A DNA stretch of 64,000 nucleotides. Source: Micromonospora purpureochromogenes. GTDB lineage: Bacteria; Actinomycetota; Actinomycetes; Mycobacteriales; Micromonosporaceae. Position 1 is the stretch's first letter, and the number at the start of each line of letters is the position of its first letter. Positions 33,696 to 51,262 of this stretch are shown one piece after another. The notes below the pieces were generated by a model. The model made no database searches. It was not told the origin of the DNA and saw only the letters and a program-made list of their open reading frames with translations. Position numbers and translations under genes: made by a program. The DNA is taken from NCBI RefSeq assembly GCF_900091515.1, contig NZ_LT607410.1, forward strand, positions 4,588,001 through 4,652,000, written 5' to 3'.

Positions 33696-33777
33696 GGGCC
33701 ACCTCGCAATACCGGGCGTGAACTGTCCGGATTCCAGCCTACGGTGTCCGTGGACATCGAGACGAGGGAGATCCGAG

Positions 33778-34518: not shown

Positions 34519-35025
34519 TCAGGGCTTGAGCAGGGCGACGATCTCGGCGGCCAGCTCCGGCGGGGTGCGCCCGTCGGTGACCACGGTCGCGGTCGCCACC
34601 TCGGCGTAGAGCGGGCGGCGCTGGTCCATCAGGTGCTTGAGGGTGGCCCGCGGGTTGATCGCGAGCAGCGGCCGGCCGGCGCCGAGCCCGACCCGCTTCA
34701 CCGCGTCGGGCAGCTCCACCGACAGGTGCACCACGGTGTGCCCGACCAGCGCGGCGCGGTTCTCCTCGGCGAGGACCGCGCCGCCGCCGAGGGCGAGCAC
34801 CCCGCCGTGCGAGGCCAGCGCCGCCGCCACCGCCGCCCGTTCGAGGGTACGGAAGTGCGCCTCCCCCTCGTCGATGAAGATCTCCGGGATCGGCTTGCCG
34901 GCCAGACGCTCGATGTCGGCGTCGGTGTCCCGGAACTCGACCCCGAGCAGTGCCGCCAGCTCCACGCCGACGGTGGTCTTGCCGGAGCCGGGCGCCCCGA
35001 CCAGCACGCAGACCGGCTTCGTCAC
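34519..35025 (-). CDS. aroK: Shikimate kinase
   Basis: Phosphorylates shikimate at the 3-hydroxyl. The 168-residue protein has Walker [12 protein letters not shown], the shikimate-binding [31 protein letters not shown] and the LID Arg in GAGRPLLA. Start GTG at 35025 is preceded by AAGGAG. It follows aroC after 55 bases that consist mostly of the second copy of the 46-bp repeat. Its stop is 12 bases from the end of the convergent hydrolase gene. Confidence 0.96.
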
Positions 35026-35038: not shown

Positions 35039-35084
35039 CGTTCGCGACTGCGGGGCTCCGCTCCGCTGCACTCCTCGCGCTCAC
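35039..35084 (-). repeat. 46-bp repeat copy 2, including the aroC stop codon
   Basis: Same element as 26641-26686 with a single base change (TCC for TTC on the plus strand). Its GTGAGCG end supplies the TGA of aroC, and it is followed by the aroK ribosome-binding site. The placement relative to the flanking genes is the same as in the pyrR-pyrB copy. Confidence 0.9.
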
Positions 35085-36359: not shown

Positions 36360-37067
36360 TCAGGCCGTCCGGACCGCGATGATCGACTTGGTCAGGCCGA
36401 GCATCCGCTCGGCCCGGATGGTCGAGTCGGGAAAGAGGTAGCGCATCTCGGCCCGACCGATCAGCTCGGTGGTGAGCACCTGCTTCATGGCCTGCTCCCA
36501 GGACTTGCCCGGGGTGTAGGCCAGCGGCCACCTGCGGGCCACCGCCACCCGGGCCGGCACCGGCAGGAACTGCATGCCGGGCGCCACCCAGTGCGGCTCC
36601 ACCGGGAAGTACCGGTACGGGGTCTGCACCCAGTGCCGGGGAGCGAGCGTCCGGATCGCCTCGGCCATCCGGCGGCGCCGCTCGTGCCCGCCCACGTGCT
36701 CCAGCACGCTGTTGCTGAACACCAGGTCGTAGCGGCGGCTCAGGATGGCCGGGGGGAGCTCGCAGGCGTCGACGTGGTCGGCCTCCACCCAGTCGGGCAG
36801 CTCCGCCGGCAGCGGCTCCAGGTTGACCACGTGCACGTGCTTCGGGCGTACCGGCACCTTTGACCAGCTGTCGACCCGGCCGCCGAGGTCCAGCACGGAC
36901 ATCTGGGCGAGGTCGGGGAACGTCTCCGACAGCCAGAGCGCCCGCTTCGCCCGGCGCTTCGCACCGTACGAGTCCGGGGAGTCGACCAGACGGAAGCGCA
37001 GCGCGTTCAGGGAACTCCGGCGGCGTGCCGCCGGGTTGTCGTCGTTGGTCCGGGTCCCGCTCGCCAC
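36360..37067 (-). CDS. Class I SAM-dependent methyltransferase of the polysaccharide cluster
   Basis: Protein of 235 residues with a Rossmann methyltransferase core: the glycine-rich [13 protein letters not shown] (motif I), an acidic end of strand 2 near [22 protein letters not shown], and [15 protein letters not shown] (motif IV/post). It resembles methyltransferase type 11 proteins in surface-polysaccharide loci. The GTG at 37067 follows the sulfotransferase stop by two bases, with GGGGAG upstream, so it is the last gene of the tight run from 43881. It may methylate a sugar of the exported polymer. Target unknown. Confidence 0.8.
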
Positions 37068-37069
37068 GG

Positions 37070-37960
37070 TCAGCTCCCCCAGTCGAAGGTCATGCCCAGC
37101 CGGCTGGCCAGGGCCTCGTTGTACGGCGCGTAGTACCGGGTCAGCTCGTCGCGGACCGCCGGGTCCATCGCGCTGCTGCGCCGGTCGTTGAAGACCTCGT
37201 ACCGGTCGAGCTGGTGGGCCGGCAGGCCGAGGAAGTCCAGCACCCGGGCGTAGGTGGCGGCGGGCTCGCGGTACAGCGTCTCGCTGGGCAGGATCAGCAA
37301 CTGCCCGCGGTCGAAGCGGTCCAGCCACGGCTCCAGGTGCTCCAGGTAGCGGCCCCGGGCCCGGTACGTGTACCAGTCGTAGGCGGTGCTGACGGACGTC
37401 GGGTCGGCGATCAGCTTCTCCCGCTCCCCCGCCGTCCGCTCCTCCTCCCGGGCCAGCGCCTCGGCGAAGTCGAGCGGCTCCACGCCCTCGGTCCGCCGCT
37501 CCTTCCAGTGCGAGTACGCCCGCTCCACCGGGTCGCGCAGCAGCACGATCAGCTTCACGTCGGGGATCAGGTCCGCCACCCGCCCCGGCGCCAGCGGGTG
37601 GAACATGTAGAGCGGCGCGGCCTCCCCCACCCGGGTCGGGCCGCCGTACCGGCGTTCCAGCGCCCGCCGCTGCCGCCGGGTCGGGAAGTGCGAGCGGTAC
37701 CACGTCTCGCCCCGGGCGAAGGTGTCCTCGAAGTAGTGCGAGGTCTTGGTGTTCCAGGCCGGGAAGAGCCGGGGCACCAGCGGATGCTTCAGCAGGTAGC
37801 GCCAGAGCGAGGTGGTGCCGCCGCGCTTGGTGCCGATGATGAGGAAGTCCGGCAGCGGGCGCCGGTCGCTGGTGCGCTCCCCGTAGCGGACCAGCGAGGT
37901 GCGCACCCCGGTCCGCACCTGGGCGGGCACCAGCGCCTTGACCCTGTCCCGCATCGTCAT
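37070..37960 (-). CDS. Sulfotransferase
   Basis: PAPS-dependent sulfotransferase of 296 residues. The 5'-phosphosulfate loop is IIGTKRGGTTSLWRYLLKHP (42-61 region) and the 3'-phosphate site is LIVLLRDPVERAYSHW with the conserved Arg and Ser. Further family blocks are KTSHYFED and GEAAPLYMFHP. It resembles the heparan/N-deacetylase-sulfotransferase-like superfamily, usually acting on carbohydrates. Position inside the polysaccharide gene run suggests sulfation of the exported glycan. Start ATG at 37960 with GGAGGACGAG upstream. Cytoplasmic; no signal or transmembrane segment. Confidence 0.88.
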   Translation of the reverse strand: MTMRDRVKALVPAQVRTGVRTSLVRYGERTSDRRPLPDFLIIGTKRGGTTSLWRYLLKHPLVPRLFPAWNTKTSHYFEDTFARGETWYRSHFPTRRQRRALERRYGGPTRVGEAAPLYMFHPLAPGRVADLIPDVKLIVLLRDPVERAYSHWKERRTEGVEPLDFAEALAREEERTAGEREKLIADPTSVSTAYDWYTYRARGRYLEHLEPWLDRFDRGQLLILPSETLYREPAATYARVLDFLGLPAHQLDRYEVFNDRRSSAMDPAVRDELTRYYAPYNEALASRLGMTFDWGS

Positions 37961-37973
37961 CTCGTCCTCCTCG

Positions 37974-39539
37974 TCAGCTCGGCCCGCGGCCGAGCAGGGT
38001 CGGCGCCGTCGCCCGCGCCCGTCGGCGTACCCCCGGATGCAGCAGCAGCGCGACGCCGAGCAGCACCGCGACCCCGAGGGTGAGGAACAGGCCGGCCACG
38101 CCCCGGCCGGCGACGGCCGCGCCGGCCGCGGCCAGCACGGCGGTGGCGGTGCCGGCGGCGGCCGCGGCGCGCAGCACCGAGCGGGTGATCAGCGGCTCGC
38201 CGATTACCCGGCGGGCGGTCACCGTCGCGATGACGTTCTCCGCCACGATGCCGACCGTCCAGGCCCACGCCGCGCCGAGCGCCCCGTGCGGCGGGATCAG
38301 CAGCACGGCCAGCGCCACGTTGAGCAGCAGGCCGGTGGCGGCGGCCAGCAGGTGCCGTCCGCTGCTGCCGCTCATCAGCAGCAACGTCTGTACGATCCCG
38401 GTCCCGGAGTTGACCATCATCGCCCCGGCGAGCACGACCATGGCGGCGGCGCCGGCGGTGAACTCCGCGCCGAACAGGCGCAGGAAACCGGGCGCGAAGA
38501 CCGCCAGCAGCAGGTAGCCGGGCCAGGAGAGCGCGATGATCACCGCGGTGATCCGCCGGTAGACCAGGGCCGCCTCGCCGGTGCGCCCCTGCCCGAGCAG
38601 CCGGGACAGCTGGGGTGCCACGGCCACCCGCAGGCCCTGCATGATGAGCAGGCCCGCGAGGGCGTAGCGGCCGACCGCGCCGATGATGCCGGCCTCGGCC
38701 TGGCCGGCGAGCGCAGCGGTGAGCAGCACCGTCAGCCACATGCTGCTGGCGTCGATGGTCGCCGAGGCGGCCCGGGGCAGCGCGAAGCCCCACAGCGTCC
38801 GCCAGTCCTCGGCGACCGGGCGCAGCGCGGCGCCGGCCCTCAGGCCCAGCGGCCGGGCCAGCAGCGCCACGCAGACCAGCACGGCCACGGCGATCGGGGC
38901 GAGCCAGCCGGCGAAGGCCACCGTCACCCCCGCGCCGGTCAGCAGCGCCGCCGACACCAGGGCCGGGCGAGCCGCCGGCACGAAGACGTACTGCACCGCC
39001 ACCAGGGCGGCGACCGGGCGCACCGCCCGCACGGCGGCCAGCAGCACCGTGGTCGCCACCACGAACGGCAGGCCGGCGAAGGCCAGCCGGAGCAGGCCGG
39101 CGCCCTCGCGCGTGCCCGGGTCGAACAGCACCGGCGCGAGCGCCCCGGAGAGGGCCACGCCGGTCAGCGCCACGACCGCGGTGAACAGCAGCGCGGGGAG
39201 CAGGGCGACGGGCAGCAGCCGGGCGGCGTCACCGTCGCGACCCGTCCGGCGCCGGGGCAGGGCCCAGACCAGCGCGGTGTCGGCACCGGCGCAGCAGAGC
39301 ACGCCCATGATCGCCACCACGCCGATCGCGGTGAACATCGCACCGGAGCCGGCCGGGCCCAGACCACGGACGATCACCACGGTCAGCACGAAGCCCAGCA
39401 GGCCGTTGACCGCCGCGCCGGCCAGCCCGACCATCCCGCTGCGCGTGCTGCGGCGTACCTCCCGCTCGCCGGCCGCCCCCCCGGCGTCCGCGACGGCCGT
39501 GGCGGCCGCGCCGGTCGGCCGCGTACCCGGATCGGTCAT
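37974..39539 (-). CDS. Polysaccharide flippase (Wzx/MATE-like)
   Basis: Integral membrane protein of 521 residues with about 12-14 hydrophobic segments. The first, GMVGLAGAAVNGLLGFVLTVVI-like text, and LGPAGSGAMFTAIG are typical of the oligosaccharide flippase superfamily (polysaccharide biosynthesis protein). It should move lipid-linked repeat units across the membrane. The ATG at 39539 overlaps the polymerase stop by four bases (ATGA), and the sulfotransferase starts 13 bases after its stop, so flippase, polymerase and sulfotransferase are made together. Confidence 0.87.
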   Translation of the reverse strand: MTDPGTRPTGAAATAVADAGGAAGEREVRRSTRSGMVGLAGAAVNGLLGFVLTVVIVRGLGPAGSGAMFTAIGVVAIMGVLCCAGADTALVWALPRRRTGRDGDAARLLPVALLPALLFTAVVALTGVALSGALAPVLFDPGTREGAGLLRLAFAGLPFVVATTVLLAAVRAVRPVAALVAVQYVFVPAARPALVSAALLTGAGVTVAFAGWLAPIAVAVLVCVALLARPLGLRAGAALRPVAEDWRTLWGFALPRAASATIDASSMWLTVLLTAALAGQAEAGIIGAVGRYALAGLLIMQGLRVAVAPQLSRLLGQGRTGEAALVYRRITAVIIALSWPGYLLLAVFAPGFLRLFGAEFTAGAAAMVVLAGAMMVNSGTGIVQTLLLMSGSSGRHLLAAATGLLLNVALAVLLIPPHGALGAAWAWTVGIVAENVIATVTARRVIGEPLITRSVLRAAAAAGTATAVLAAAGAAVAGRGVAGLFLTLGVAVLLGVALLLHPGVRRRARATAPTLLGRGPS

Positions 39540-41320
39540 GCCGTCCCTCCCTGGCGTGGCGCGTCCGCTACCGGCCGGTCCGGCTCGGACGCCGGCGGCC
39601 GGGCCGCCTCGGCCGCCGCCGGCACGGCCGGGGCCGGCGCGGGAGGCGGGATGGTCGCGGCCCGGGGCGCGGGCACGGCGGTCCCGGCCGGCGTGGTCGG
39701 CGTTGCCGGGGCAGGGGGCGGGGTGGTGGCGGCCCGGGGCGCAGGGACGACAGTCGTCGCTTCCGCCGCCGTCGACGGCGGGGCGGTCGACGCAGGCGGG
39801 GCGGTCGCGGATCGCGGCGCGGGCACGACCGGCGCGGCGCTCGCGGCCGGGACCGGCGCGGACGGCGGGGACGACGCGGACGGCGGGGACGACGCGGACG
39901 GCGCGGACGGCGGGGCCGGCATGCGCAGCGGGACCGCGGCCACCCCGGTCGCCGGCGGCGGCGCGGGCGGGGGCACCGGTGGCGCGGGCACCGCGGCGCG
40001 GCCGATCCCCCGGGTACGCCAGGGCGCCAGCGGCGCCGGTCGGGCCATGGTGGACGGGCCGGTCGGCGCCCGGTTGACCGGCCCGCCCACCGCCGCCAAC
40101 CCGGCCCCGACGGCGAAGAAGATCACCGACAGGTTCGGGTCGATGTAGGCGTAGACCGGGATGACCACCAGCGCGATCACCGGGACGGTGCTCAGCCAGT
40201 GCCCGGCCGGCGAGACCGCGGCGGCCAGCCGCCGGGCCACCAGCACCAGCCAGCCGAGGAAGACCACCAGCGCCGGGATGCCGTGGCTGTAGAGGATCTG
40301 CCAGATCAGGCCCTGGGTGCCCAGCGGCTCCTCGGCGAGGGTGGTGTCCACGCTCTTCGGCGCGCCGTACCCGAGCAGCGGCGAGCGCTCGACCGCCTGC
40401 CAGGTCCGCACGTAGAGGTCCATCCGGTCGACGTTGGTGTCGGTGCTGCTGACCCGGGCGTCGATCATCTCCTGCACCGGCACGACCAGGCTGACCACCC
40501 AGACCAGCACGACCAGCCCGCCGATCGAGACGATCAGCCGGGCGTTGCCCCGGACCAGGGCGCGCAGGCCCAGGTAGAGCAGGCCGGCGCCGAGGCCGAG
40601 GAACATGCCCCGGTTGAGCGTCATGAACGCCGGCACCACCGACAACGGCAGCGACACCCACAGCGCCACCCGGAACCGCCCGGTACGCACCGAGGTCAGG
40701 TACGCCAGCACGCAGGGCACCAGCAGCGCGTACGCGGTCCCCCAGTTGTTGGTGTACGGGTACGGCGTCGCGGTGCGGTAGATCGGCGTGCGCGACTGCG
40801 GGTTGAACTCGTTGGCCCGGACGTGGGTCAGCGCCTGGATGAACCGCTCCCCCGAGATGCCGTGCGGCAGGGCCATCTCCACCGGGGTGGTCAGGGCGAA
40901 GGTCGGCATCAGCACGGCCAGCCAGCCCAGCGCCACCACGCCCAGCCAGTACCAGCCCAGCGGGCGCAGCACCCGGTCCCACCGGGCGCCCTCGCGGACC
41001 AGGGTGTGCACGTACACGCAGACCACCAGCGCGGTCGCCAGGAAGCCGAAGCGCAGCCCGAAGGTGAGGTAGGCGGTGGCCCGGTCCAGCCGGGTGGCGC
41101 TGAGCAGCACCAGGATGAGGAAGACCAGCCAGGCGGCGCTGCCGGGGGGCAGCGCGACCCGGCCGCGGGTGACCAGCAGGGCGAGCAGCACGACCCCGAA
41201 GACCGACCAGCCGAGGTAGAACGCGCCCAGCGCCCACCAGAGCGGCACCAGGGCGAACATGGCCGTCAGCGGCCAGACGGGCAGTGGCGGCGCGGTCGCC
41301 CCGGGCCGCCGGTCAGACAC
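39536..41320 (-). CDS. O-antigen polymerase/ligase-like membrane protein with long Pro/Ala tail
   Basis: Protein of 594 residues. Residues 1 to about 425 are a multi-spanning membrane domain with the Wzy/WaaL-like features YPYTNNWGTAYALLVP, FMTLNRGMFLGLGAGLLYLG and a large loop containing SPLLGYGAPKSVDTT and GTQGLIWQILYSHG. It probably polymerises or transfers exported glycan units. Residues of about 425-594 form a disordered Pro/Ala/Ser tail with repeats such as VVPAPRAATTPPPAP. Start GTG at 41320 overlaps the glycosyltransferase stop by eight bases. The tail is unusual for this family. Confidence 0.85.
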   Translation of the reverse strand: MSDRRPGATAPPLPVWPLTAMFALVPLWWALGAFYLGWSVFGVVLLALLVTRGRVALPPGSAAWLVFLILVLLSATRLDRATAYLTFGLRFGFLATALVVCVYVHTLVREGARWDRVLRPLGWYWLGVVALGWLAVLMPTFALTTPVEMALPHGISGERFIQALTHVRANEFNPQSRTPIYRTATPYPYTNNWGTAYALLVPCVLAYLTSVRTGRFRVALWVSLPLSVVPAFMTLNRGMFLGLGAGLLYLGLRALVRGNARLIVSIGGLVVLVWVVSLVVPVQEMIDARVSSTDTNVDRMDLYVRTWQAVERSPLLGYGAPKSVDTTLAEEPLGTQGLIWQILYSHGIPALVVFLGWLVLVARRLAAAVSPAGHWLSTVPVIALVVIPVYAYIDPNLSVIFFAVGAGLAAVGGPVNRAPTGPSTMARPAPLAPWRTRGIGRAAVPAPPVPPPAPPPATGVAAVPLRMPAPPSAPSASSPPSASSPPSAPVPAASAAPVVPAPRSATAPPASTAPPSTAAEATTVVPAPRAATTPPPAPATPTTPAGTAVPAPRAATIPPPAPAPAVPAAAEAARPPASEPDRPVADAPRQGGTA

Positions 41321-42254
41321 CCCGGCCCCGGCGCTGGGCCAGCCGGAGCACCCGCTCCCCGGAGAGCAGGCCGAGCACCACCGGCACGGTCACCAGCACC
41401 CGCTTCTCACGGGGGTTGAGCCGGACCACCCGGCCCAGCTCGCGCAGCGCCTCCCGGCGCCGCCGCCCGGAGGCGAGCGCGAAGGCGATCTGGCCGTGCA
41501 ACCGGGCCAGCCCGGTCCGGCTGCCGGCCAGCTCCGGGTGCTTGGCGAGCAGGTAGCGGGTGGCCTCGACGATCATCGCCCAGCGGCCGAAGAAGAACGA
41601 GCCGCCGTGCCAGTCCACCACCACCAGCACCTCCGGCACGATCACCACCGGACCGTGCGCGGTCACCCGCAGCAGCCACTCGTAGTCCTCGCCGTAGCCG
41701 CCCGGCAGTTCCTCGTCGACCGGGCCGACCGCGTTCCAGGTGGACCGCCGGACCAGGATGGTGCTGGAGTGCACCTCCATCACCCGGTCCTCGACGAAGT
41801 CGGACAGGCCGACCTCGGCCCGGTCCAGGCGCCGCTCCTTGGCGATGCCCGGGCCCTCCAGCCGGATGCCGCAGCTCGCGGCGGCGGCGTCGGGGCGGGC
41901 CGCCAGCAGCTCCACCTGCCGGGTGAGCTTGGTCGGCAGCCAGAAGTCGTCGTCGTCGCAGAACGCGATGAGGTCGCTGGTCGCCTCGTCCGCGCCGGTG
42001 TTGCGGCCGCCGGGCAGCCCGCGCCGGTGCGTGTTGGTGACGTACCGCAGGGTGCGCCCGGCCGGCACGGCCAGGTCGAGCGGGCGGATCTCGGTGTGGT
42101 CGTACACCACCAGGCACTCGACCGGCCCCGGGTAGTCCTGGTCGAGCACCGCCCGCACGGCCCGCTCCAGCAGCCCCGGCCGGTCCCGGGTGGCCACCAC
42201 CACGGTCACCGGGGGGTACGCCGTCGCGGCGCCCGGCTGGTCGCGGTCAGTCAC
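41313..42254 (-). CDS. Family 2 glycosyltransferase
   Basis: GT-A fold glycosyltransferase of 313 residues. Visible motifs are TVVVATRDRPGLLERAV, the nucleotide-sugar/metal site FCDDDDFWLP (DXD) and the acceptor-side GYGEDYEWLLRV (ED). The C-terminal third is helical and basic (ASGRRRREALREL), possibly membrane-associated. It should add a sugar to the lipid-linked repeat unit. Start GTG at 42254 overlaps the Wzz-like gene by eight bases. Confidence 0.88.
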   Translation of the reverse strand: MTDRDQPGAATAYPPVTVVVATRDRPGLLERAVRAVLDQDYPGPVECLVVYDHTEIRPLDLAVPAGRTLRYVTNTHRRGLPGGRNTGADEATSDLIAFCDDDDFWLPTKLTRQVELLAARPDAAAASCGIRLEGPGIAKERRLDRAEVGLSDFVEDRVMEVHSSTILVRRSTWNAVGPVDEELPGGYGEDYEWLLRVTAHGPVVIVPEVLVVVDWHGGSFFFGRWAMIVEATRYLLAKHPELAGSRTGLARLHGQIAFALASGRRRREALRELGRVVRLNPREKRVLVTVPVVLGLLSGERVLRLAQRRGRGV

Positions 42255-43881
42255 GGCCGTCTCCCGTCAGCACGAATCCGACCGGCTCCACCCCGACGGA
42301 GCGCAGCCGGTCCACCAGCTGGGTCAGCTGACCCGTCCGGGTCCGGTCCCGGGCCGCGACCAGCAGCGCCCGGCCCTCCCGGGCGGCCCGGACCCCGCGC
42401 TCGTCGTGCAGCGCGGGCGGCGCGTCCAGCACGGTGAGCCCCTCCGAGGCGGCGCCGTCCAGGTCGACGAGGCGGACCTTGCCGGTGCCGATGCGCAACT
42501 CCTGCCCGTCGGTCGCCGCGCCGTCGGCAGCCGGCCGGGCGGTCGGGATGACCTCCGTCTTGTCCTCTCCAGTGGTGGTGGAGCGGTACACCGCGCCGTT
42601 CTTCGCCTCGGCGGAGGTGGGGAACGGTCGGGGCTTGCGGACCGCCGGGATCACGGCGGTGTCCTCGGGCCCGGCGGCCGTCGTCGCCGGTGTGGTGGCG
42701 GGCACCGGGCGGGGACGGGGCAGCGGACGGGAGCGGGCCGGCTCCACCGGCGGGTTGCGGCGCTGCGCGTCCAGCATCAGCGGTCGGATCCGGTCCAGGC
42801 TCTCCGGCGTGACACCGAGGCGTACGTCGTGGCCGGCGGCGGCCAGCACCGCGGCCAGCCCCGCGGTGACCTGCTCGCGGCCCTCGTCGGTCGCCGAGGA
42901 GAGCACCACCAGCGGGGTCCGCTGCGGCCCGTCGACCCAGCGGCCCAGAGCCAGCACGAGGTAGCGCAGGTCCGACTCGTCCGGCTGCCCGCCCCGGCGG
43001 CACCGCACCGTGCCGAGCAGCGGCGCGTTGATCGTCGCGGCGGCCTCGGCGGCGGTGCGCACCCGGCGGTCCAGGGACTCCCGGACGAAGGCCACCAGCC
43101 CACCGAGGAGCAGCCCGCCGAGCAGGCCGGCGACCAGGAGCAGCGGCGCCGTGTCCCGGCTGGAGGGCACCGGGGTACGGGCGGCGCTGGTCACCGAGCC
43201 GGGGCTCAGGTCGGCGGAGGCCACCTTGGACCGCTGCTCGGCGAGGGTGGCGAGCTGGTCGTTGAGCGCCCGCAGCTGGTCCAGCAGGGCGCTGGTGCGC
43301 GGGGACGGGTTGCTGGAGCTCTGGTTGGCCGGCAGCGACCGTTGCGTCGTCGTGCGCTGGGCGGTGACCAGGTCGATCGTGTCGTCGTACGACTTGAGCA
43401 CCCCGGCGCGCTGGTTCTCGTACATGCCCTTGCGCAGTTCCAGGTACGACTCGGCGGCGCCGTTCGCGCCGTTCACCGCCTCGCGCTCGCTGTGCCCGGC
43501 GTAGCTGAAGCGCATCACCTGCCCACCGACCGGGGTCTCCACCTCCAGGGCGTCGGCCACCTCCTTGGTGTCCCGCCCGGTGATGCGGGCGACCTTGTCG
43601 ATGACGTCGTTGCTGGTGGCGATCCCGCTCTCGGCCGTCATGTTCACCGCGCGGTCGGCGCCACCGGACGGCACCGAGAACGGGTCGGTCACCACCGGCC
43701 GGACCACCACGGCCGTGGTCGCGGTGTACGTGGCCGGCAGCACGAACAGGTAGGCCAGCACGGCCGCCAGCACCAGCGCCGCGGAGGCGAGCACGATCCG
43801 CCACCGCCGCAGCGGGATGCGGGCCAGCTCGACGAGGCCGACCGGGCGTTGCCGGGCGGAAGCGACGTCGGTCACGTCCAT
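42247..43881 (-). CDS. Wzz/BY-kinase-like chain-length protein with degenerate kinase domain
   Basis: Protein of 544 residues. It has a first transmembrane segment (about 30-50, VLASAALVLAAVLAYLFVLP), a periplasmic-type Wzz domain with coiled coil, and a second transmembrane segment (about 250-272, LLLVAGLLGGLLLGGLVAF). The cytoplasmic part is laid out like a bacterial tyrosine kinase, but Walker A is lost (SSATDEGREQVTAGLAAVLA where SATPGEGKTT is expected), Walker A' is absent, and only a Walker B-like TVLDAPPAL remains. A 100-residue Pro/Thr-rich stretch interrupts it, and there is no C-terminal tyrosine cluster. It probably sets chain length without kinase activity. First gene of the overlapping run down to 36360. 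Confidence 0.8.
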   Translation of the reverse strand: MDVTDVASARQRPVGLVELARIPLRRWRIVLASAALVLAAVLAYLFVLPATYTATTAVVVRPVVTDPFSVPSGGADRAVNMTAESGIATSNDVIDKVARITGRDTKEVADALEVETPVGGQVMRFSYAGHSEREAVNGANGAAESYLELRKGMYENQRAGVLKSYDDTIDLVTAQRTTTQRSLPANQSSSNPSPRTSALLDQLRALNDQLATLAEQRSKVASADLSPGSVTSAARTPVPSSRDTAPLLLVAGLLGGLLLGGLVAFVRESLDRRVRTAAEAAATINAPLLGTVRCRRGGQPDESDLRYLVLALGRWVDGPQRTPLVVLSSATDEGREQVTAGLAAVLAAAGHDVRLGVTPESLDRIRPLMLDAQRRNPPVEPARSRPLPRPRPVPATTPATTAAGPEDTAVIPAVRKPRPFPTSAEAKNGAVYRSTTTGEDKTEVIPTARPAADGAATDGQELRIGTGKVRLVDLDGAASEGLTVLDAPPALHDERGVRAAREGRALLVAARDRTRTGQLTQLVDRLRSVGVEPVGFVLTGDGRD

Positions 43882-44015
43882 CAGGTCAGGTCCTTGCGCG
43901 ATGAGGAAGGGGCGGCCGGCACCGGCCGGGTGACGACCGCGCCGGGGCGGGTGGGTCGTCTCATTGTCGCCGACCGTTCACCCGCGGTCGACAGCCGACC
44001 GGCCCCCTGCGGTAC

Positions 44016-44056
44016 GGGCGGTCCGCCGGTGTCGCGGGGACACCGGCGAACCGCCC
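44016..44056 (-). terminator. Terminator hairpin after the propeller-protein gene
   Basis: Eighteen-base arms (44016-44033 and 44039-44056) with a single mismatch and a five-base loop, 16 bases past the stop of the secreted propeller protein. On the plus strand the arms read GGGCGGTCCGCCGGTGTC and the near-complement. The gap 43882-44071 holds this and the promoter area of the Wzz-like gene. Confidence 0.72.
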
Positions 44057-44071
44057 GGAACCCGGATCGGG

Positions 44072-46030
44072 TCAGGAGGTGGCGAAGAACAGCGTCCGGC
44101 TGGACCAGTTCACGCCGGCCGAGGCGGGCGCGAGCTGGACCGAGGCGGTGCCGTCGACGGCCGTCTCGTCGAACGGGACGGCCCGCAGCGAACCGTCGGC
44201 GTTGCCGTACACGATCTTGCCGTTCACCCAGGCCATGCCCCGGACGTTGCCCCAGGCGAGGTTCAGGCTGGGCAGCGTGAACTCGGTGCAGCCGACGATG
44301 TAGCCGTCCGGCTCCAGGTAGCGGTAGAACAGGTTGTTGGTACCGGCCTTCGTGTAGTACATCCGGCCGTCGAGGTAGAACGCCCCGCTCATGGTGGCGG
44401 GCTTGAACCAGTTGTTGTAGCCGCTGCTGATCCAGGGCGCGCCCACCGAGCCGCCCGAGAAGATCGACACGTCCAGGTAGCTGCCGTTCGGCGCGGTCGC
44501 GTCGGTCTTGGACCAGTAGAGCTTGTTGCCGACGGAGAACGCCGCGCCCGCCGCGGTGAGGTTCGGCTGGCTGCTGGCCACCGGGGTGCCCAGCGTGGTG
44601 CCGTCGAACGGCACCTTGGTGGCCTGGCCGTTGGCGGTGCCCACGTAGAGGTAGCCCGAGGCGGCCGACGGCGCGTTGACCGCCGGGATCGTCCGGCCAC
44701 CGGCCAGCGGGAACAGCCCCATCCGGCCGTGGTACTCGTTGCCGAGCCCGTCGTTGTCGAAGCCGGCGAGCAGGCCGTTGCTGCCGCGCCACAGCTCCCA
44801 CAGGATCGGACCCCACTCGGTCGTGCCGGCCGGCGCGCCCGAGCGGGTCGGGTTCCACACCAGCGGCATGCCGTTGATCGGGTCGAGCGCGCCCAGGCCG
44901 TACCGGTTGATGGCGCCCGCGCCCGCGGAGTCGTCACCGTTGGCGTTGCTCAGCCACCGGAAGTGACCGCCGACGTACACCACGTTGTCGGCCGCCTCGA
45001 TCGAGGTCACCGAGTCGTGGCCGGTGTCGTCCACCCAGGTGCCGTCGATGGCCGCGCCCCGGGTGGCGGTCTCGAACCGGGCGATCGTGTCGCAGTACGC
45101 CCCGGTGGCCCGGCCACCGTCCGCGGCGATCACGAAATAGCTGCCGTCGTCGGAGAAGTCGACGTCGCGGGCATAGAACGGGAAGCCGGCGCCGCACTGC
45201 GCCACGTACCGCTGGGTGCTCCAGGCGGCGACGGCCGGGGTACCGGTCAGGTTCTCGACGACCACCACCTGGTTGCGCGCCTGGCCGTTGACCTGGGTGA
45301 AGTTGCCGACCGCGACCAGGGTCCCGCCGTTCGGCGCGACGGCGAGGCCCCACACCAGCTCGGAGCTGGACCGGGCGACGCTGGCGTCGACCTGGAAGGT
45401 CGGGTCGATGGCGCCGGTGGTGGCGTCCAGCCGGGCCAGCAGCGAGTGCTGGGTGCCGTTGACCCAGTGGAACGCCCCGGCGAGGTAGAGCTTGTTGCCC
45501 AGCACGACGGTGCGCCGGACGAGCCCGCCGTCGCTGCGGCCGACCCAGGAGGCGACGGTGGCGCCGGTGGTCGGATCCAGCTCGACCAGGTTCTTGCGGG
45601 CCACGCCGTTGACCGTGCCGAACGCGCCACCGACGATGAGCTTGCCGTCCGGGCTGGCCGCCAGCGCGTGCACCGCGCCGTCCAGCGCCGGCGCGAAGCC
45701 CGCCTTCAGCGCCCCGCTCACCCGGTCGTACGCGAACAGGTAGTTGCGGGCCGTCCAGCTCGCGTCGCCGGCCGCCTTGATCGAGGTGAACGAGCCACCG
45801 ACGTAGACGGTGCTGCCGATCTCGGCGAAGGCCTTCACGTCGCCGTTCTGCGCGTGCGGGATGTTGTCGGCCGGGTTCGCCGAGGTGAGCGTCATGGGCA
45901 CCGGCGGCAGGCCGTCCGCCCGGGCGGGCGCCGCCAGCAGGCCGACGGCCAGCACCGGCGCGGCGAGCGCGGCGAGCCACCGCCGCAGCGCCGGCACCCG
46001 GCGCGATCGAGACGACGTTCTGAGAAGCAC
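44072..46030 (-). CDS. Secreted beta-propeller-like protein of the polysaccharide cluster
   Basis: Predicted secreted protein of 652 residues. It has a basic start (LLRTSSRSRRVPALRR), a hydrophobic core (WLAALAAPVLAVGLLA) and an AxA cleavage site near APARADG. The mature part consists of repeated blades of the type VYVGGSFTSIKAAGD, LIVGGAFGTVNGVARKN, LYLAGAFHWVNGTQHS and VAVGNFTQVNGQARN, as in delta-60/NHL-like propellers. The GTG at 46030 was chosen because it follows GGGGGCG and leaves a normal signal peptide; an ATG at 46093 is possible but has no clear ribosome-binding site. It may bind the polymer outside the cell; no catalytic motif is evident. Confidence 0.8.
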   Translation of the reverse strand: MLLRTSSRSRRVPALRRWLAALAAPVLAVGLLAAPARADGLPPVPMTLTSANPADNIPHAQNGDVKAFAEIGSTVYVGGSFTSIKAAGDASWTARNYLFAYDRVSGALKAGFAPALDGAVHALAASPDGKLIVGGAFGTVNGVARKNLVELDPTTGATVASWVGRSDGGLVRRTVVLGNKLYLAGAFHWVNGTQHSLLARLDATTGAIDPTFQVDASVARSSSELVWGLAVAPNGGTLVAVGNFTQVNGQARNQVVVVENLTGTPAVAAWSTQRYVAQCGAGFPFYARDVDFSDDGSYFVIAADGGRATGAYCDTIARFETATRGAAIDGTWVDDTGHDSVTSIEAADNVVYVGGHFRWLSNANGDDSAGAGAINRYGLGALDPINGMPLVWNPTRSGAPAGTTEWGPILWELWRGSNGLLAGFDNDGLGNEYHGRMGLFPLAGGRTIPAVNAPSAASGYLYVGTANGQATKVPFDGTTLGTPVASSQPNLTAAGAAFSVGNKLYWSKTDATAPNGSYLDVSIFSGGSVGAPWISSGYNNWFKPATMSGAFYLDGRMYYTKAGTNNLFYRYLEPDGYIVGCTEFTLPSLNLAWGNVRGMAWVNGKIVYGNADGSLRAVPFDETAVDGTASVQLAPASAGVNWSSRTLFFATS

Positions 46031-46214
46031 GGGCGCCCCCAATGATGAAGTGAGATCCTGCGTAGCTTGCTGCGTTCCGATTTGTCGCACCATCAACCGA
46101 CCGGTCCGCTCCGACGGCGGCTCGGTCCGGTCCCGTCGTCCGGGTCGCGGCGCCACGGGCCACGGTGGACACCGGTCGCGCCTCGACCGGTGGACGTGCC
46201 GGCCGGGCCGGGCG

Positions 46215-47156
46215 TCACGTCGTCCACCGGAACGGTGCCGGCGCGCCGCTCGCGCCGACCGTCCACGATGCCGCCTCGGCCAGGTCGTCGACGGTGATCT
46301 CGTCGGCCTCCCGGGCCAGCACCAGCCCCCGGCGGTCCAGTTCCCGGGCCATCGCGACCTGGTGGTCGTCGACGTGCTCGCCGTACCGGCGGCGGCGGGG
46401 CACGTAGACGGCACGGTGCCCGGCGCGCATCGCGGCCAGCGCCGAGCCGACCCCGGCATGCGTGACGACGACGTCCGCCTCCCGCATGGCCTGCTGCATC
46501 TCGGCGTACGGCACCTCGCGGCGGGCGCCGGCGGGCATCCCCGGGACGACCGTCGAGCCGACCTGCCAGAGGACCTCCGCCTCCGATGGGAGGACGTCGA
46601 CCAGGCGACGCAGCAACCGGGGGAACCCGAAGCGGTCGTGGGTGCCGAGGGCGACCACGATCCGCGACACCGGCCGGGACGTCACCCGCCGGGTGGCGAG
46701 GTAGGTGTCGAAGATGGAGCCGCCGTAGGCCCACCGGCCGGCCGCCCAGCCCGGGTACTGGGTGTAGAGCCGGGTGCGGGGCACCCGGGCGACCAGCCGT
46801 CCGGTGAGCGAGGGCCCCTCGGTGCGGGTGGCGCTCTCGATGTAGTGGCAGGCCAGGCCGTGACGGACGGCGGGCAGGAAGAACGACATGGCCACGCTGG
46901 CGCCGGTGCTGATCACCTGCCGGAACCGCCCGCCGCCGAGCACCCGGCGGGCCGCCAGCAGGTCACGCAGCGCGCCCACCGCGTCCCGGGTGGTGGCCGG
47001 TGGGACGTGGATGACCTCCTGGCCGTCGAGCAGCGACCGGCTCTGCGGCGAGTCGAAGGTGGCCCAGACGCAGTCGTCCTGCACGCCGAGCCGGGGGGCC
47101 AGGTCGTGCAGCTCGGCGAGGTGTCCACCGGTGGAGGCGACGAGAAGGGTGGTCAC
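46215..47156 (-). CDS. Glycosyltransferase, PssD/PssE (Alg14/Alg13)-like fusion
   Basis: Protein of 313 residues. The N-terminal half (TTLLVASTGGHLAELHDLAP, VISTGASVAMSFFLPA, CHYIESATRTEGPSLTGRL) resembles Alg14/PssD, and the C-terminal half (RIVVALGTHDRFGFPRLLR, MQQAMREADVVVTHAGVGS, GHRAVYVPRRRRYGEHVDDHQ) resembles Alg13/PssE and the MurG nucleotide-binding domain. Together they make one GT-B enzyme that adds a sugar, often glucuronic acid, to lipid-linked intermediates in exopolysaccharide synthesis. Start GTG at 47156. Confidence 0.87.
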   Translation of the reverse strand: MTTLLVASTGGHLAELHDLAPRLGVQDDCVWATFDSPQSRSLLDGQEVIHVPPATTRDAVGALRDLLAARRVLGGGRFRQVISTGASVAMSFFLPAVRHGLACHYIESATRTEGPSLTGRLVARVPRTRLYTQYPGWAAGRWAYGGSIFDTYLATRRVTSRPVSRIVVALGTHDRFGFPRLLRRLVDVLPSEAEVLWQVGSTVVPGMPAGARREVPYAEMQQAMREADVVVTHAGVGSALAAMRAGHRAVYVPRRRRYGEHVDDHQVAMARELDRRGLVLAREADEITVDDLAEAASWTVGASGAPAPFRWTT

Positions 47157-47238
47157 GTCGGTGCCAGCTTCCGTGGTGAGGGGTGGTGGATCGGGCGTTC
47201 CGGCCGCCGCGGTACGGGTGCGGCGTCCGGGCTCATGC

Positions 47239-48078
47239 TCAGGTGGCGGTCGTGACGCGGTCGCGGGTCGCCGGGGTGCTCACACCGGACGGTGCCGGCG
47301 GGCGGAGCCGGCCGTCGGCGACGAGCACCGCCAGCGCCATCACCGCGAACAGCAGGGCGGCGAAGATCCAGCCGCCGAGCACGTCGGTCAGCCAGTGCTT
47401 CTCGGCGTAGATCCGCGTGTAGCCCTCAACGCTGACCAGCGTCACCACCAGGGTCACCAGGGCCACCCGGACGCCGCGCGGCAGGCGCCAGGTCACCATT
47501 GCCAGCACCGCGATGGTGCCGAAGGTCAGCATGATCCGCGCGCACCCGCCCGACGGGTAGGTTCCCAGGTCGGTCGGAGGGTGGCCCCGATCGACCATGG
47601 TCGCCAGAATGGCCTGGACGTACTGCTCGACGACGAACTGCAGGGGCAGCACGACCAGCGGAACCCACCACCGGCGGCGCCGCCACAGGACGACGAAGAC
47701 CAGCGTCGCCACGCCGGTGACCCACTTGAGCGGGTAGCGGTCACCGAGCGCGGTGTAGAAGGAGTTCAACTCCGCCCAGGTGTCGACCCGTCGGGCGTGC
47801 ACGTAGTCGAAGACCGGATGGTCGACGTGCGGTTCGAGGCGGGACAGCACCTCCCCCAGCGGCCAGCAGATCGCCACCACCGCGGCGCCGCCGGCGAGCA
47901 GCACGACCAGCGCGGCCCCGGTCCGGCCGAACGCGTCGGTCAGCCCGGCCAGCGCCACCCGCAGCCGGTGCGCCGCCCGACCGTCGCGGACCACCGGGGC
48001 CCAGCGGTTCGCCGCCACCGGCGTCAGCACCGCGGGCACCAGCACCGCCAGCAGCCCCAGCGCGTAGATGAGCGTCAT
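47239..48078 (-). CDS. PAP2-family membrane phosphatase-like protein
   Basis: Membrane protein of 279 residues with about six hydrophobic segments. Motif 3 of the PAP2 family is present (RIYAEKHWLTDVLGG, Arg-x5-His-x3-Asp). Motif 2, normally PSGH, reads YPSGGCARI, so the conserved His is missing, and motif 1 is only loosely recognisable (VDRGHPPTDLG). In polysaccharide loci such proteins recycle undecaprenyl or polyprenyl pyrophosphate. Whether this one is active is uncertain. Start ATG at 48078. Confidence 0.75.
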   Translation of the reverse strand: MTLIYALGLLAVLVPAVLTPVAANRWAPVVRDGRAAHRLRVALAGLTDAFGRTGAALVVLLAGGAAVVAICWPLGEVLSRLEPHVDHPVFDYVHARRVDTWAELNSFYTALGDRYPLKWVTGVATLVFVVLWRRRRWWVPLVVLPLQFVVEQYVQAILATMVDRGHPPTDLGTYPSGGCARIMLTFGTIAVLAMVTWRLPRGVRVALVTLVVTLVSVEGYTRIYAEKHWLTDVLGGWIFAALLFAVMALAVLVADGRLRPPAPSGVSTPATRDRVTTAT

Positions 48079-48380
48079 CCTCGGTCGCCGCCGTTCCGCC
48101 GGCCGGTCGACCGGCCGAGCACCGTCCGTCGGGCGGCCCCGCGCCCGACGTCACCCGCCGTTGCCATCCGTCCCCCTGCCACGCCGGCCCACCGCCGGCC
48201 GCCCCACACCGGAGCCCGGCGGCGCCCCCACGCCGGGCAGGATCGACCACGCCGTCGCCGGCAGGTGGTGATCGAGTGGTGACCCTAGTGGACCGGCTCC
48301 GATGAGTGGTAGTGAGCAGAACGCTCACGCGGCTTTTTACCGGGTTTGCCGGTCGCCTCCCCGACAGTCGCGCGCCCCGA
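48079..48380. other. Gene-free gap upstream of the PAP2 gene, with a palindrome
   Basis: About 300 bases without a convincing gene. At 48312-48328 there is the palindrome GTGAGC AGAAC GCTCAC, followed on the plus strand by GCGGCTTTTT. Read on the minus strand it lies upstream of TAGGGT (a TAnnnT hexamer) that could be the PAP2 promoter, so it might be an operator; as a plus-strand hairpin plus T run it also looks like an intrinsic terminator, but no plus-strand gene precedes it. Confidence 0.4.
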
Positions 48381-49622
48381 TCAGCCGGTCCCGCCGGACA
48401 GCCGCTCGGCGAGGACGTGCAGCAGCGCGGGATGCAGCCGGTCGCTCCAGCCGCCGCCCCCGGCGGCCAGCTCGGCCGTGCGCAGCCACAGCTCGACGAG
48501 GTACGCGTCGGCGACGAGCCGGCGGCGGGTCGCGTCCAGCCCGAACGCCGCACCGTGCCGCTGCAGCACCGCGACCATCTCGGCGGCGGCCGCCGGCACC
48601 GGCCGGCCGCCCAGCGACAGCGCGCTCTGGAACCCCTGGTGGGCCAGGTCGAACCCGACCGGGCGGTGCGCGCCGCTGTTCTCCCAGTCCCAGGCGACCA
48701 ACCGGCCGCCGTGGCGGCCGAGGTTCCAGGGCACCCAGTCGCCGTGCCAGTGACCGAACTCCAGCGTGGTGTCGCCGTCGCGGGCGACGAGCGCGGCGAC
48801 CGCGTCGACGACCGGACCGCCGGCGCGTTCGGCGCGCGCGCCGAGGTCGGCCAGGAACGCCGAACCGCGCAGCGGCCGGGGCGGGGTCGCCGGGCCACCC
48901 CGGCGGGCCACCGCCAGCATCGCGGCCACCTCGGGGCGCTCCGGGTGCGGCAGCCTGCGGACCCGGGCGGGCATCGGCTCGACCAGGGTCACCGCCAGGT
49001 CGCCCCAGCGCAGCTCGCGCAGCAACCGGGGCACGTCCGGGAAGTCGCCGCCGTCGCGGGGCAGCGCGCGCAGCGCGACGGCCTCCACCGCCACCATCGC
49101 CCGGGTCGCGTCGTTCCAGCCGATCTTCGCGTACCCGCGGGCCGCGCCCCGGTCGTCGAAGAGTTGCAGGGTCGGCTTGTGGTGCGGGTCCGGCGGCCGG
49201 ATGCCGATCGCCGCGTGCAGCCGGCGGCCGGCCAGCCGGCCCAGGTGCGCGGCCAGCAGCAGCTCGGTCTCCTCGACCCCGTCCGGCACGGCGACCGTCA
49301 GCACCGGCATCCGGGCCAGCCCGGTGGCGCCGACCCCGGCGAGCACGCCGACGGCGAGCCGGTTGGCCCGTACCCGGGGTGGCCGCAGCGCGTTGTACGC
49401 CAGCGTCGAGGCGGCCCCGACCCGCCGGGAGGCCAGCGGCAGCAGGAACTTCGCCCGCGCCACCGACGGCACCACCGCGTAGCGGGCGGCGACGCGGTGC
49501 CCGGGTGGCGGCGGGGCGGCGGAGACGTCCAGCCACAACCGGGGGTCGCCGAAGATCGCCCGGCTCACCCAGCCGATGCCGTCGGAGCGTTCGCGGGGAT
49601 CGTCCGCCCGGTGCGCCGCCAT
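48381..49622 (-). CDS. Aminoglycoside phosphotransferase (APH)-family kinase
   Basis: Protein of 413 residues. The C-terminal half has the APH/choline-kinase catalytic loop FGHWHGDWVPWNLG (Asp and Asn of the HxDxxxxN type) and the metal site VAWDWENSG. Earlier blocks include YAKIGWNDATRAMVAVEAVAL with the ATP-binding Lys/Glu pattern. The ATG at 49622 has GGGAG five bases upstream. In this context it could phosphorylate a sugar, lipid head group or small molecule rather than an antibiotic. The N-terminal 80 residues are not recognised. Confidence 0.8.
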   Translation of the reverse strand: MAAHRADDPRERSDGIGWVSRAIFGDPRLWLDVSAAPPPPGHRVAARYAVVPSVARAKFLLPLASRRVGAASTLAYNALRPPRVRANRLAVGVLAGVGATGLARMPVLTVAVPDGVEETELLLAAHLGRLAGRRLHAAIGIRPPDPHHKPTLQLFDDRGAARGYAKIGWNDATRAMVAVEAVALRALPRDGGDFPDVPRLLRELRWGDLAVTLVEPMPARVRRLPHPERPEVAAMLAVARRGGPATPPRPLRGSAFLADLGARAERAGGPVVDAVAALVARDGDTTLEFGHWHGDWVPWNLGRHGGRLVAWDWENSGAHRPVGFDLAHQGFQSALSLGGRPVPAAAAEMVAVLQRHGAAFGLDATRRRLVADAYLVELWLRTAELAAGGGGWSDRLHPALLHVLAERLSGGTG

Positions 49623-49693
49623 GCCGTCTCCCGTCCGCCCGGGCCGGCCGCCGGTCCGCGCTGGCGGACACGATAGGGCCCGGGGGCAAGGAA

Positions 49694-49724
49694 CCGCCCG
49701 ACGGGCTGCGGGCCCGCCGGGCGG
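49694..49724 (-). terminator. Hairpin after the GH16 gene
   Basis: Thirteen-base arms CCGCCCGACGGGC (49694-49706) and GCCCGCCGGGCGG (49712-49724) with one mismatch, 20 bases beyond the GH16 stop on the minus strand. Likely terminator that separates it from the APH-type kinase gene. Confidence 0.6.
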
Positions 49725-49744
49725 CGTGGTGCCGGTGGCCGCGC

Positions 49745-51262
49745 TCAGCGCTGCCAGACGCGGACGTGGTCGACCCGGAAGTCGGCCGGGAAGCGGGTCG
49801 CCGCGTCCGGGTCGCCCAACCAGCCGCCCACCTGGAAGTTCAACCGCAGGTTGTACGGCTTGTGGAAGACCTCGTCGAACCAGGGCGTGGTGGCCCGGTC
49901 GCGCTGCCAGACCAGCCGGCCGTCGACGTACCAGCGGATCGCGTCCGGCTCCCACTCGGTGGTGTACGTGTGGAAGCCGTCACCCGGGTAGCCGATCGGG
50001 AACGGGTACCGCTGGTCCTGCTTGACCGGGGTGTAGTCGTAGAAGATGCCCAGGGTGGCGGCCTGGTAGAACCCGTCGCCGCCGGGCAGCTCCACCACGT
50101 CGATCTCGCCGTGGCCGCCGTCGTCCGGGCGCAGCCAGAACGCCGGCCACAGGCCGTTGGAGTCGGTGGGCCCGTTGGGCGACTGGGCGCGCACTTCGAA
50201 CCGGCCGTACCGGAACGACGCCAGGCCGATGGTGTCCAGGTAGCTCTGCGTGTACTCGCGGGTCTGCGAGCTGCACACCGCGGTCTCCCGCTGGGCGCGC
50301 AGGGTCAGCACGCCGCCGGCGACGAAGGTGTTGTCCGGATCGTCCACGTTGCAGCCCCGGTCGATGTCGCGTCCCTCGTCGTCGCGCAGGTTCCACTTCG
50401 ACCGGTCGACGATGGCGCCGTCGAACTCGTCGGACCAGACCAGCCGCCAGCCGGGCACCTGGTCGCCAGGACGGGTGGTCGGCGACGGGGCGGGCGCGGT
50501 GGTGCTCGGCGGCGGGATCGGGGCGGTCCGGCTCGCGGTGGGCGACGCGGTTCGGCTCGGCGACGGCGCGGGGGCGGCGGTGGTGGTCGTCGCGATCGGG
50601 CTCGGCGCCGCGGTCGTCCGGGTCGGCGCGGGCCGGCCGCCGCGTCCGTAGCGCAGCACCAGCTGCGGCCGGATGGCCACCTTGACGTTCTCCCGGGACG
50701 CCCAGTAGATCCGGGTGTTCCAGGTCTCCTGGGTCAGGGCGAAGACGAACCGGCCGTTGCCGGTGACCGAGGCCGACACGTCCCACTCGTTGAAGCCCTG
50801 GCCGACCCGCTCGACGCCGGACAGCGCCGGCCCGAGTTCCGGCCGCAGCGACCAGGCGCCGGTGCCGGCGGCGGAGCCGAAGGCCCGGTGGGCGTGCACC
50901 CGGGAGGAGAACGGCTGCCAGGCGTACACCCGCAGGGTGGCGCGGACGTCGACCGCGTCGGCCGGCAGGTCGCGCACCGCGAACTCGACCAGCGCGTCCC
51001 GCTCGCCGGTGCGGTTGCCGTCGCAGAGCCGGGGGCAGCTGGCCAGGGTGGTCTTGACGCCGTTGTCCCCGTCCTGCGGGACCTGGGTGGCGGTGGTGTC
51101 CGCCGCCGCGGCCACGGCGAGCGGGGGCACCTCCGCCGCCACCAGCGGCATCATCGTGGCCACCACGCCGGCCACCATGCCGGCGCTCAGGACACCCAGG
51201 ACCGCGGCCTTGCGGCGCGCGCCGAGGCGGGATGCAGCGCGGTGGAGTCCGTGCCGGCTCAA
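49745..51262 (-). CDS. Secreted GH16-family glycanase with N-terminal DNRLRE/CBM96-like domain
   Basis: Predicted secreted enzyme of 505 residues. A signal peptide (RRKAAVLGVLSAGMVAGVVA) is followed by a beta-sandwich domain (about 55-205, DGDNGVKTTL to IRPQLVLRYG) similar to DNRLRE/CBM96 modules, a Thr/Pro/Ser linker (about 210-265), and the GH16 domain (about 268-505). The catalytic ExDxxE motif is GEIDVVELPG, preceded by LWPAFWLRPD and followed by WEPDAIRWYVDG. The only plausible start is TTG at 51262, with GGGGAG six bases upstream. GH16 enzymes cut beta-1,3/1,4 glucans or galactans; here it may trim or release the island's own polymer. Confidence 0.9.
   Translation of the reverse strand: MSRHGLHRAASRLGARRKAAVLGVLSAGMVAGVVATMMPLVAAEVPPLAVAAAADTTATQVPQDGDNGVKTTLASCPRLCDGNRTGERDALVEFAVRDLPADAVDVRATLRVYAWQPFSSRVHAHRAFGSAAGTGAWSLRPELGPALSGVERVGQGFNEWDVSASVTGNGRFVFALTQETWNTRIYWASRENVKVAIRPQLVLRYGRGGRPAPTRTTAAPSPIATTTTAAPAPSPSRTASPTASRTAPIPPPSTTAPAPSPTTRPGDQVPGWRLVWSDEFDGAIVDRSKWNLRDDEGRDIDRGCNVDDPDNTFVAGGVLTLRAQRETAVCSSQTREYTQSYLDTIGLASFRYGRFEVRAQSPNGPTDSNGLWPAFWLRPDDGGHGEIDVVELPGGDGFYQAATLGIFYDYTPVKQDQRYPFPIGYPGDGFHTYTTEWEPDAIRWYVDGRLVWQRDRATTPWFDEVFHKPYNLRLNFQVGGWLGDPDAATRFPADFRVDHVRVWQR

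Follow-up and report, generated by a model that had tools for sequence, protein, structure and literature searches.

Sulfated polysaccharides of bacteria are treated as almost confined to cyanobacteria in the accessible parts of two reports (PMC13390465, PMC8205485). One of these deals with the xss cluster of Synechocystis 6803, whose product, synechan, is a sulfated exopolysaccharide that was analysed chemically (PMC8205485). The other describes wps-1 of Actinoplanes missouriensis (AMIS_7280-7380; Tezuka and Ohnishi, June 2026, PMC13390465), which, as far as the accessible text goes, consists of genes for a GT2 glycosyltransferase, a Gal/GlcNAc-type sulfotransferase, a GT26 glycosyltransferase, a DUF4262 protein, a GH26 enzyme, a methyltransferase and the flippase Wzx, followed by a heparan-sulfate-type sulfotransferase, a kinase, Wzy and Wzz, and adjoins a gene for sulfate adenylyltransferase/adenosine 5′-phosphosulfate (APS) kinase. 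According to the same text, eleven mutants were made that each lack one gene, and seven of them (A, C, G, H, I, J and K) form squashed sporangia, among them the null mutants of the sulfotransferase gene wpsH, the kinase gene wpsI, wzx, wzy and wzz; mutants E and F are otherwise abnormal, B and D look normal, and loss of the adjacent sulfate adenylyltransferase/APS kinase leads to severe sporangium defects. That the wps-1 product is a sulfated polysaccharide is its authors' prediction, by their own word not shown (PMC13390465). Here we compare with these systems a run of eleven genes at positions 36360-51262 of a 64,000-nucleotide stretch (the window) of the 6.67 Mb single-contig genome of Micromonospora purpureochromogenes (NZ_LT607410.1, positions 4,588,001 to 4,652,000). 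We infer the reactions, product and role of the run from its genes, and consider it likely that it directs the Wzx/Wzy-dependent synthesis of a sulfated exopolysaccharide of the cell surface or spore coat; within the genus the locus holds one fixed slot, between aroE and aroC, and would replace a second locus sited elsewhere.

As the A. missouriensis wps-1 we took a cluster at 0.78-0.79 Mb of an 8,773,466 bp genome (G219), where eleven called genes stand in wps-1 order; ten of them were tested by Pfam or blastp, and all ten, plus the APS kinase gene, agree with wps-1. Compared with the proteins at the corresponding positions of that cluster, the window sulfotransferase is 42% identical, GT2 40%, Wzx 35% (over 171 aa), the kinase 34%, Wzy 30% and Wzz 29%. 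The flippase, polymerase, chain-length protein, heparan-sulfate-type sulfotransferase, APH-like kinase and GT2 are therefore homologous components common to both loci, and each locus also carries a methyltransferase. An earlier note, made from the letters of the window alone, had not recognized the gene set as a described system; with wps-1, a homologous one has been described (PMC13390465, accessible part).

The eleven genes lie on the minus strand between aroE (~51365-52192, Pfam Shikimate_dh_N), the upstream border of the slot, and aroC (35081-36259, Chorismate_synt), its downstream border. The flanking genes mltG (52541-53743) and aroK (34519-35025) are on the same strand, and aroB, efp and nusB follow further along after aroK; the Pfam scan of the flanks ran from mltG to nusB, with bldD outside it. 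A same-strand run of about 15 kb at this place is what the earlier note had reported, together with the tight packing of its last six genes, and both hold: from wzz to the methyltransferase gene the gaps measure -8, -8, -4, 13 and 2 bases. The gene types that it had listed are likewise borne out by Pfam, NCBIfam and structural models, the flippase through its membrane segments and homology and the kinase through its AlphaFold fold. The run has a GC content of 0.750 as against 0.746 for the whole window, and so shows no sign of recent import; with the slot common to the genus as well, a recent foreign island is rejected.

The core of the run has the hallmarks of a Wzx/Wzy-type system, in that a flippase, a polymerase, a co-polymerase and glycosyltransferases are encoded together. 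The Wzz-like chain-length co-polymerase (42247-43881; Pfam Wzz, two membrane segments) is followed by a GT2 glycosyltransferase (41313-42254; Pfam Glycos_transf_2, related as above to the protein at the WpsA position) and a Wzy-like polymerase (39536-41320; Pfam Wzy_C, nine membrane segments in a rough count from hydropathy). The latter ends in a long Ala/Pro-rich C-terminal tail (39536-39900), and called Wzy lengths differ among relatives. In the Wzx-like flippase (37974-39539), related to the protein at the WpsG position, hydropathy predicts 12 membrane segments, and the MatE match is sub-threshold (16.3 bits against a cut-off of 24.9). The heparan-sulfate-type sulfotransferase (37070-37960), a WpsH homologue that would use 3′-phosphoadenosine 5′-phosphosulfate (PAPS), and an S-adenosylmethionine-dependent methyltransferase (36360-37067; Pfam Methyltransf_23), an optional part, complete the group. 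Upstream of these six genes stand, in transcription order, a secreted GH16 glycanase with a CBM96 domain (49745-51262; Pfam Glyco_hydro_16 and CBM96, with an EglC-like NCBIfam match below its cut-off), an APH/choline-kinase-fold phosphotransferase homologous to WpsI (48381-49643), a PAP2 membrane phosphatase (47239-48078; Pfam PAP2), a fused PssD-PssE/WelK-like GT28 glycosyltransferase (46215-47156) and a secreted DUF5122 beta-propeller protein with an N-terminal hydrophobic segment (44072-46054; Pfam DUF5122). The kinase protein gave no Pfam match at E 0.01; in its model, which has a pLDDT of 92.8, the chain adopts the choline kinase/APH fold, and comparison of sequence and fold shows its active site to be intact. 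The VIA-align list for this model held no FAM20-type kinase, a list that is no test of absence. The propeller model is all-beta (pLDDT 85.5), and a PDB sequence search with the propeller protein gave no match, while the same search with the GT28 protein returned generic glycosyltransferases only. The NCBIfam WelK match of the latter, at 104.8 bits, falls below the cut-off of 400, and a glycosaminoglycan-like repeat is rejected, this similarity being too weak for naming a sugar.

In a phmmer search of the PDB the sulfotransferase matches best 3rnl, a chain named just 'Sulfotransferase', followed among characterized enzymes by heparan sulfate 3-O-sulfotransferase 3A1 (E 1e-21) and NDST (E 2.7e-16). 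The animal heparan sulfate 3-O- and N-sulfotransferases belong by sequence to the same family and share with the window enzyme the PAPS loop and the aligned glutamate. Residues G43, R46, G48, T49, T50, S51, E113, R142 and S150, whose roles in PAPS binding and, for the glutamate, in catalysis we take from the general understanding of this family, are kept in all 60 sulfotransferases compared, so that alignment shows the PAPS loop and the putative catalytic glutamate to be intact throughout. The animal enzymes are Golgi proteins and act on the polymer, whereas no membrane segment is predicted in the window sulfotransferase.

On this basis the following pathway may be proposed. A PF02397 sugar-phosphate transferase encoded elsewhere would prime undecaprenyl phosphate, and the GT28 and GT2 enzymes would extend the repeat. 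The cytosolic sulfotransferase would then transfer sulfate from PAPS onto the lipid-linked repeat before flipping, the APH-fold kinase would add phosphate to the repeat or a precursor, and in some strains the methyltransferase would cap the repeat. Wzx would flip the repeat, Wzy polymerize it and Wzz set the chain length, with PAP2 as a candidate for recycling of the carrier from undecaprenyl pyrophosphate; the secreted propeller may bind the polymer and the GH16 enzyme may trim it. PAPS would come from a single sulfate adenylyltransferase (Sat)-APS kinase gene far from the locus. Within the genus, the locus at aroE-aroC would substitute for a second locus of the sulfated-polysaccharide kind, which has a fixed site of its own, and would not accompany it. 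The likely product is accordingly of the kind that the earlier note had put forward, a sulfated surface polymer.

The supply of PAPS offers a further link to wps-1. The sole APS-kinase gene of the window genome encodes a 509-aa Sat-APS kinase at ~1.54 Mb (G000:C1), ~3 Mb from the locus, and its product is 78% identical over 496 aa to that of the gene beside wps-1. A DeoR-type gene lies 109 bases downstream, with 76% identity to the DeoR gene that bounds the other side of wps-1, and no wps gene is found between the two in the window genome. Since the Sat-APS kinase gene directly neighbours the far-side DeoR gene, the wps-1 site is seen to be empty in this genome, the PAPS synthetase alone remaining. 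Among the best 80 of 400 named PAPS-synthetase loci, some of them cut by contig ends, wps-type sulfotransferase genes stand beside the synthetase in 46, of which 44 come from outside Micromonospora, Verrucosispora and Salinispora. The 24 Micromonospora-named loci in this set comprise 16 with DeoR directly adjoining and no sulfotransferase, one with DeoR further off, five with neither and two with wps-type genes (L362, L370); the last two argue against a simple genus rule. The one Verrucosispora locus resembles the 16, and the four of Salinispora have neither.

The earlier note had viewed the run as an island inserted between aroE and aroC. The interruption itself is real; it is not specific to this strain. 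We located aroC and mltG in 61 genomes of the genus and could measure the interval in 52, where one contig carries mltG together with all or part of aroC (in nine the interval is split over contigs). Thirty-five intervals span 14-20 kb, one 48.5 kb (G070) and 16 are short (0.9-5.6 kb), so that the slot is filled in 36 of 52. All 36 occupied intervals hold this locus. Homologues of Wzz, Wzx, sulfotransferase, kinase, GT2, GT28 and propeller occur in every one of the 34 occupied intervals fetched besides the window and G070, which excludes chance; the single tblastn miss of Wzy (L066) was recovered there by the gene caller, a simple codon-composition script that supplied the gene calls on fetched loci. 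A site for unrelated inserts is thus rejected, the 34 fetched intervals of 14-20 kb carrying the same kind of locus. The large interval of G070 (L205-L207) holds a locus of the second subtype described below, a PAP2-like gene and ~27 kb of other, mostly opposite-strand genes. Fifteen of the 16 short intervals were fetched as well; that of G006 (5.5 kb) contains two called genes unlike the locus.

Two subtypes can be distinguished among the 34 fetched loci. Subtype A (seven loci) resembles the window in having a fused GT28 and PAP2; subtype B (27 loci) has GT28 in two pieces and GT2 shifted to the aroC end. GT28 is encoded by two genes in the B-type loci L065 and L142, and half-length matches fit this arrangement in the other B loci. 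By tblastn, PAP2 is present in 7/7 A-type and 0/27 B-type fetched loci, and the PAP2-like gene mentioned above was called in the B-type locus of G070. A B-type locus also fills the slot of G066 (L091; 5,183,331 bp). Median identities between the window and subtype B are 74% for the sulfotransferase, 59% for the kinase, 56% for Wzx, 55% for the propeller, 54% for Wzy, 48% for GT2, 42% for GT28 and 41% for Wzz, the sulfotransferase being the best conserved of the proteins common to all occupied slots. The earlier note had suggested a perhaps methylated polymer; the methyltransferase is present in the window and in nine of the 34 loci (one A, eight B; median identity 81% in the 8/27 B loci), and is an optional component. 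Subtype A needs four changes on a tree of rpoB and rpoC, whereas the A sulfotransferases form one group (support 83), a pattern which suggests that the cassettes have travelled from strain to strain.

For the second locus, the alternative sulfated-polysaccharide locus of Micromonospora, we use our own label W2. Its gene set comprises a propeller-malectin protein, GH26, Wzx, a sulfotransferase, a kinase, Wzy, a DUF3048 protein, Wzz, a second sulfotransferase and a split GT28. The core is the same as in the window, and for the kinase, the sulfotransferase, Wzx, Wzy, Wzz and the propeller the two loci have homologues that share 27-42% identity; unlike the window locus, W2 lies beside a NUDIX gene, follows a wps-1-like order and has GH26, the malectin-propeller, DUF3048 and the second sulfotransferase, the features seen in loci L150-L154, where the propeller is fused to malectin domains. 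W2 was confirmed in 16/16 genomes: in five by the full locus, in eight by a sulfotransferase of 77-100% identity that has Wzx, kinase and Wzy of the W2 type as neighbours, in G009 by 79% sulfotransferase identity, and in two more, G014 and G071, by a W2 propeller standing where W2 is otherwise located. The five full loci share the same NUDIX gene (5/5), an adjoining nucleotidyltransferase gene (4/5) and a CBS gene (4/5). The NUDIX gene was also found in 13 of the 26 W2-less genomes searched, with no W2 gene within 1.5 kb on either side in those 13, and it was not found in the window genome. A common site for wps-1 and W2 is rejected, as their flanks differ. In the 61 genomes this locus type occurs in 43, W2 in 16, both in none and neither in two. 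With 20 more genomes of the genus from the family search (16 of this type and four of W2, whose identity was checked), the counts for 81 are 59, 20, none and two. Occupancy by this locus or by W2 is thus an either/or matter in the sampled genus.

Outside Micromonospora the picture is broader. A search of 200 genomes of the family, with a cut-off of E<=1e-40 for a related sulfotransferase, found one in 179; for one of the genomes with no match the listing gives no genus. Sulfotransferases of the window's type (identity at least 69%, the next best match reaching 48%) are present in 60 of the 200, half of them outside the genus. In a separate search, which scored 7997 candidates, the cultured Micromonospora halophytica is among the matches listed (120 of 4841) and has a sulfotransferase of this same type. 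The rarity in actinomycetes that the earlier note had supposed does not apply within the family. In the 13 loci fetched from the 30 genomes outside the genus, Wzz, Wzx, GT2, sulfotransferase and propeller are found in 13/13 and Wzy in 12/13, and no match to aroC, aroE or mltG was present within the 20 kb taken in any of them. The aroE-aroC interval is hence rejected as the universal home of the locus, and the comparison of this interval that the earlier note had proposed gives, in sum, 36 of 36 occupied slots of the genus with the locus, 16 of 52 that are short, and 13 of 13 loci from other genera without these flanking genes nearby.

Several observations weigh against a sulfated exopolysaccharide whose locus replaces a second one. 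The substrate of a sulfotransferase is not readable from its sequence, a glycan being the putative one here. None of the eleven genes encodes an initiating phosphoglycosyltransferase, for which reason the 'full' pathway of the earlier note is slightly too strong a term, although the set of Wzx/Wzy and sulfotransferase genes is present; four PF02397 genes lie elsewhere in the window genome, and the stretch around one of them (L213) contains no homologue of the locus. Two genomes of the 61 (G013, G032) lack both loci, a third sulfotransferase locus is found alongside one or the other of the main ones, and other genera hold this type together with a wps-1-like one. The run might, then, make an ordinary Wzx/Wzy surface polysaccharide while the sulfotransferase has some other target, be it a lipid, a protein or a natural product, as the breadth of the Pfam family Sulfotransfer_1/3 and the bare name of the best PDB match would allow. 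We regard this as unlikely, since wzx adjoins the sulfotransferase gene on the same strand, at most 150 bases away, in 60/60 loci, the enzyme is the best conserved of the shared proteins, and its clearest characterized PDB relatives are glycan-sulfating animal enzymes; moreover, in Actinoplanes the wpsH mutant shares its squashed sporangia with the wzx, wzy and wzz mutants (PMC13390465, accessible part). The polymer could also be a cell-wall-linked secondary polymer of the teichuronic type instead of a free or capsular one. The transferases show similarity to WelK/PssD-PssE and TuaG, in every case below cut-off, which would fit uronic-acid polymers, and the genes do not reveal how the polymer would be attached. 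Pfam reported no LCP-type ligase domain among the eleven, and Wzz, the secreted GH16 enzyme and the propeller would better suit an extracellular polymer, so that a wall-linked product appears distinctly improbable.

The either/or pattern, in turn, might reflect shared ancestry or sampling chance without functional replacement. Locus labels do cluster on the rpoB-rpoC tree, which covers 59 of the 61 genomes (the two left out, G075 and G077, have this locus type). The third locus, with its own Wzx type and another place, occurs in 14/61 genomes, beside this locus in 12 and beside W2 in two. It is represented by L155 (G012) and L379-L389, with further sulfotransferase-like genes near L155. That these second sulfotransferases are W2 in disguise is rejected: eleven fetched ones are 70-92% identical to L155 and 41-44% to W2, and of the remainder G012 is L155 itself and G024 and G072 reach 44% and 46% to W2. 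As the third locus coexists freely, the rule is limited to the two main loci, and together with the coexistence in other genera this means that sulfated loci are not mutually exclusive in general. Nevertheless, the tree requires at least seven changes of this locus and at least six of W2, the six being forced by starred branches, and both loci occur together in none of the 81 genomes. A Pagel-type test favours dependent over independent evolution (likelihood ratio 30.2, nominal p 4.5e-6 from chi-square with some rates at bounds), and in seven independent pairs W2 changes in the opposite direction in five or six and never in the same one, a borderline sign test (median p 0.031, range 0.031-0.0625). 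An origin of the pattern in ancestry or sampling is accordingly rather unlikely, and that it reflects more than ancestry has good but not overwhelming support.

If functional replacement is accepted, it is tempting to speculate, as a tentative possibility, that a sulfated glycan coat is approximately genus-wide in Micromonospora, made by two distantly related fixed-site loci that repeatedly swap in the manner of a capsule switch. The putative sulfate-adding enzyme persists, and it is the transferases, the chain-length protein and the hydrolase that change, which would make sulfate, and perhaps the phosphate added by the kinase, the selected feature of a coat whose sugar chain varies. Should the products prove sulfated, the trait would be widespread in a large antibiotic-producing family; the two-site occupancy would be a natural experiment on why one coat replaces another. 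From the invariant kinase it would seem that a further modification step has so far gone unrecognized. In the open-licence literature of PubMed Central we found no report of the aroE-aroC slot or of two sulfated-polysaccharide loci that replace each other in an either/or manner, and no title on this locus in that literature on Micromonospora, Micromonosporaceae or Salinispora. Two further observations concern the rest of the window. The interval between aroK and aroB is also interrupted, by called genes on both strands (31337-34506), including a WYL-domain regulator (32715-33674, minus) and an alpha/beta hydrolase (33778-34506, plus). Two tandem plus-strand genes (2541-3428 and 3508-4398), with similar N-termini and a Septum_form domain in the first, are probably a duplication.

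Comparison with known systems places the locus as a sister of Actinoplanes wps-1, the closest described system. Only wps-1 has the second sulfotransferase (WpsB), the GT26 (WpsC) and GH26 (WpsE) enzymes, the DUF4262 protein and an adjacent PAPS synthetase gene; for WpsB, WpsC and WpsE no counterpart was found among the eleven window genes by Pfam and NCBIfam. The window locus, unlike wps-1, has GH16, GT28, PAP2 and the propeller, and runs Wzz-GT2-Wzy-Wzx-sulfotransferase-methyltransferase at aroE-aroC, as against Wzz-Wzy-kinase-sulfotransferase-Wzx in wps-1. The xss cluster, likened here by the description in the accessible part of PMC8205485, is likewise of the Wzx/Wzy type with sulfotransferases; it differs in having two sulfotransferases of distinct subfamilies and eight glycosyltransferases, and in being plasmid-borne and cyanobacterial. 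The kind of system is therefore already known from wps-1, and what is new here is the aroE-aroC slot and the pattern by which two loci replace each other.

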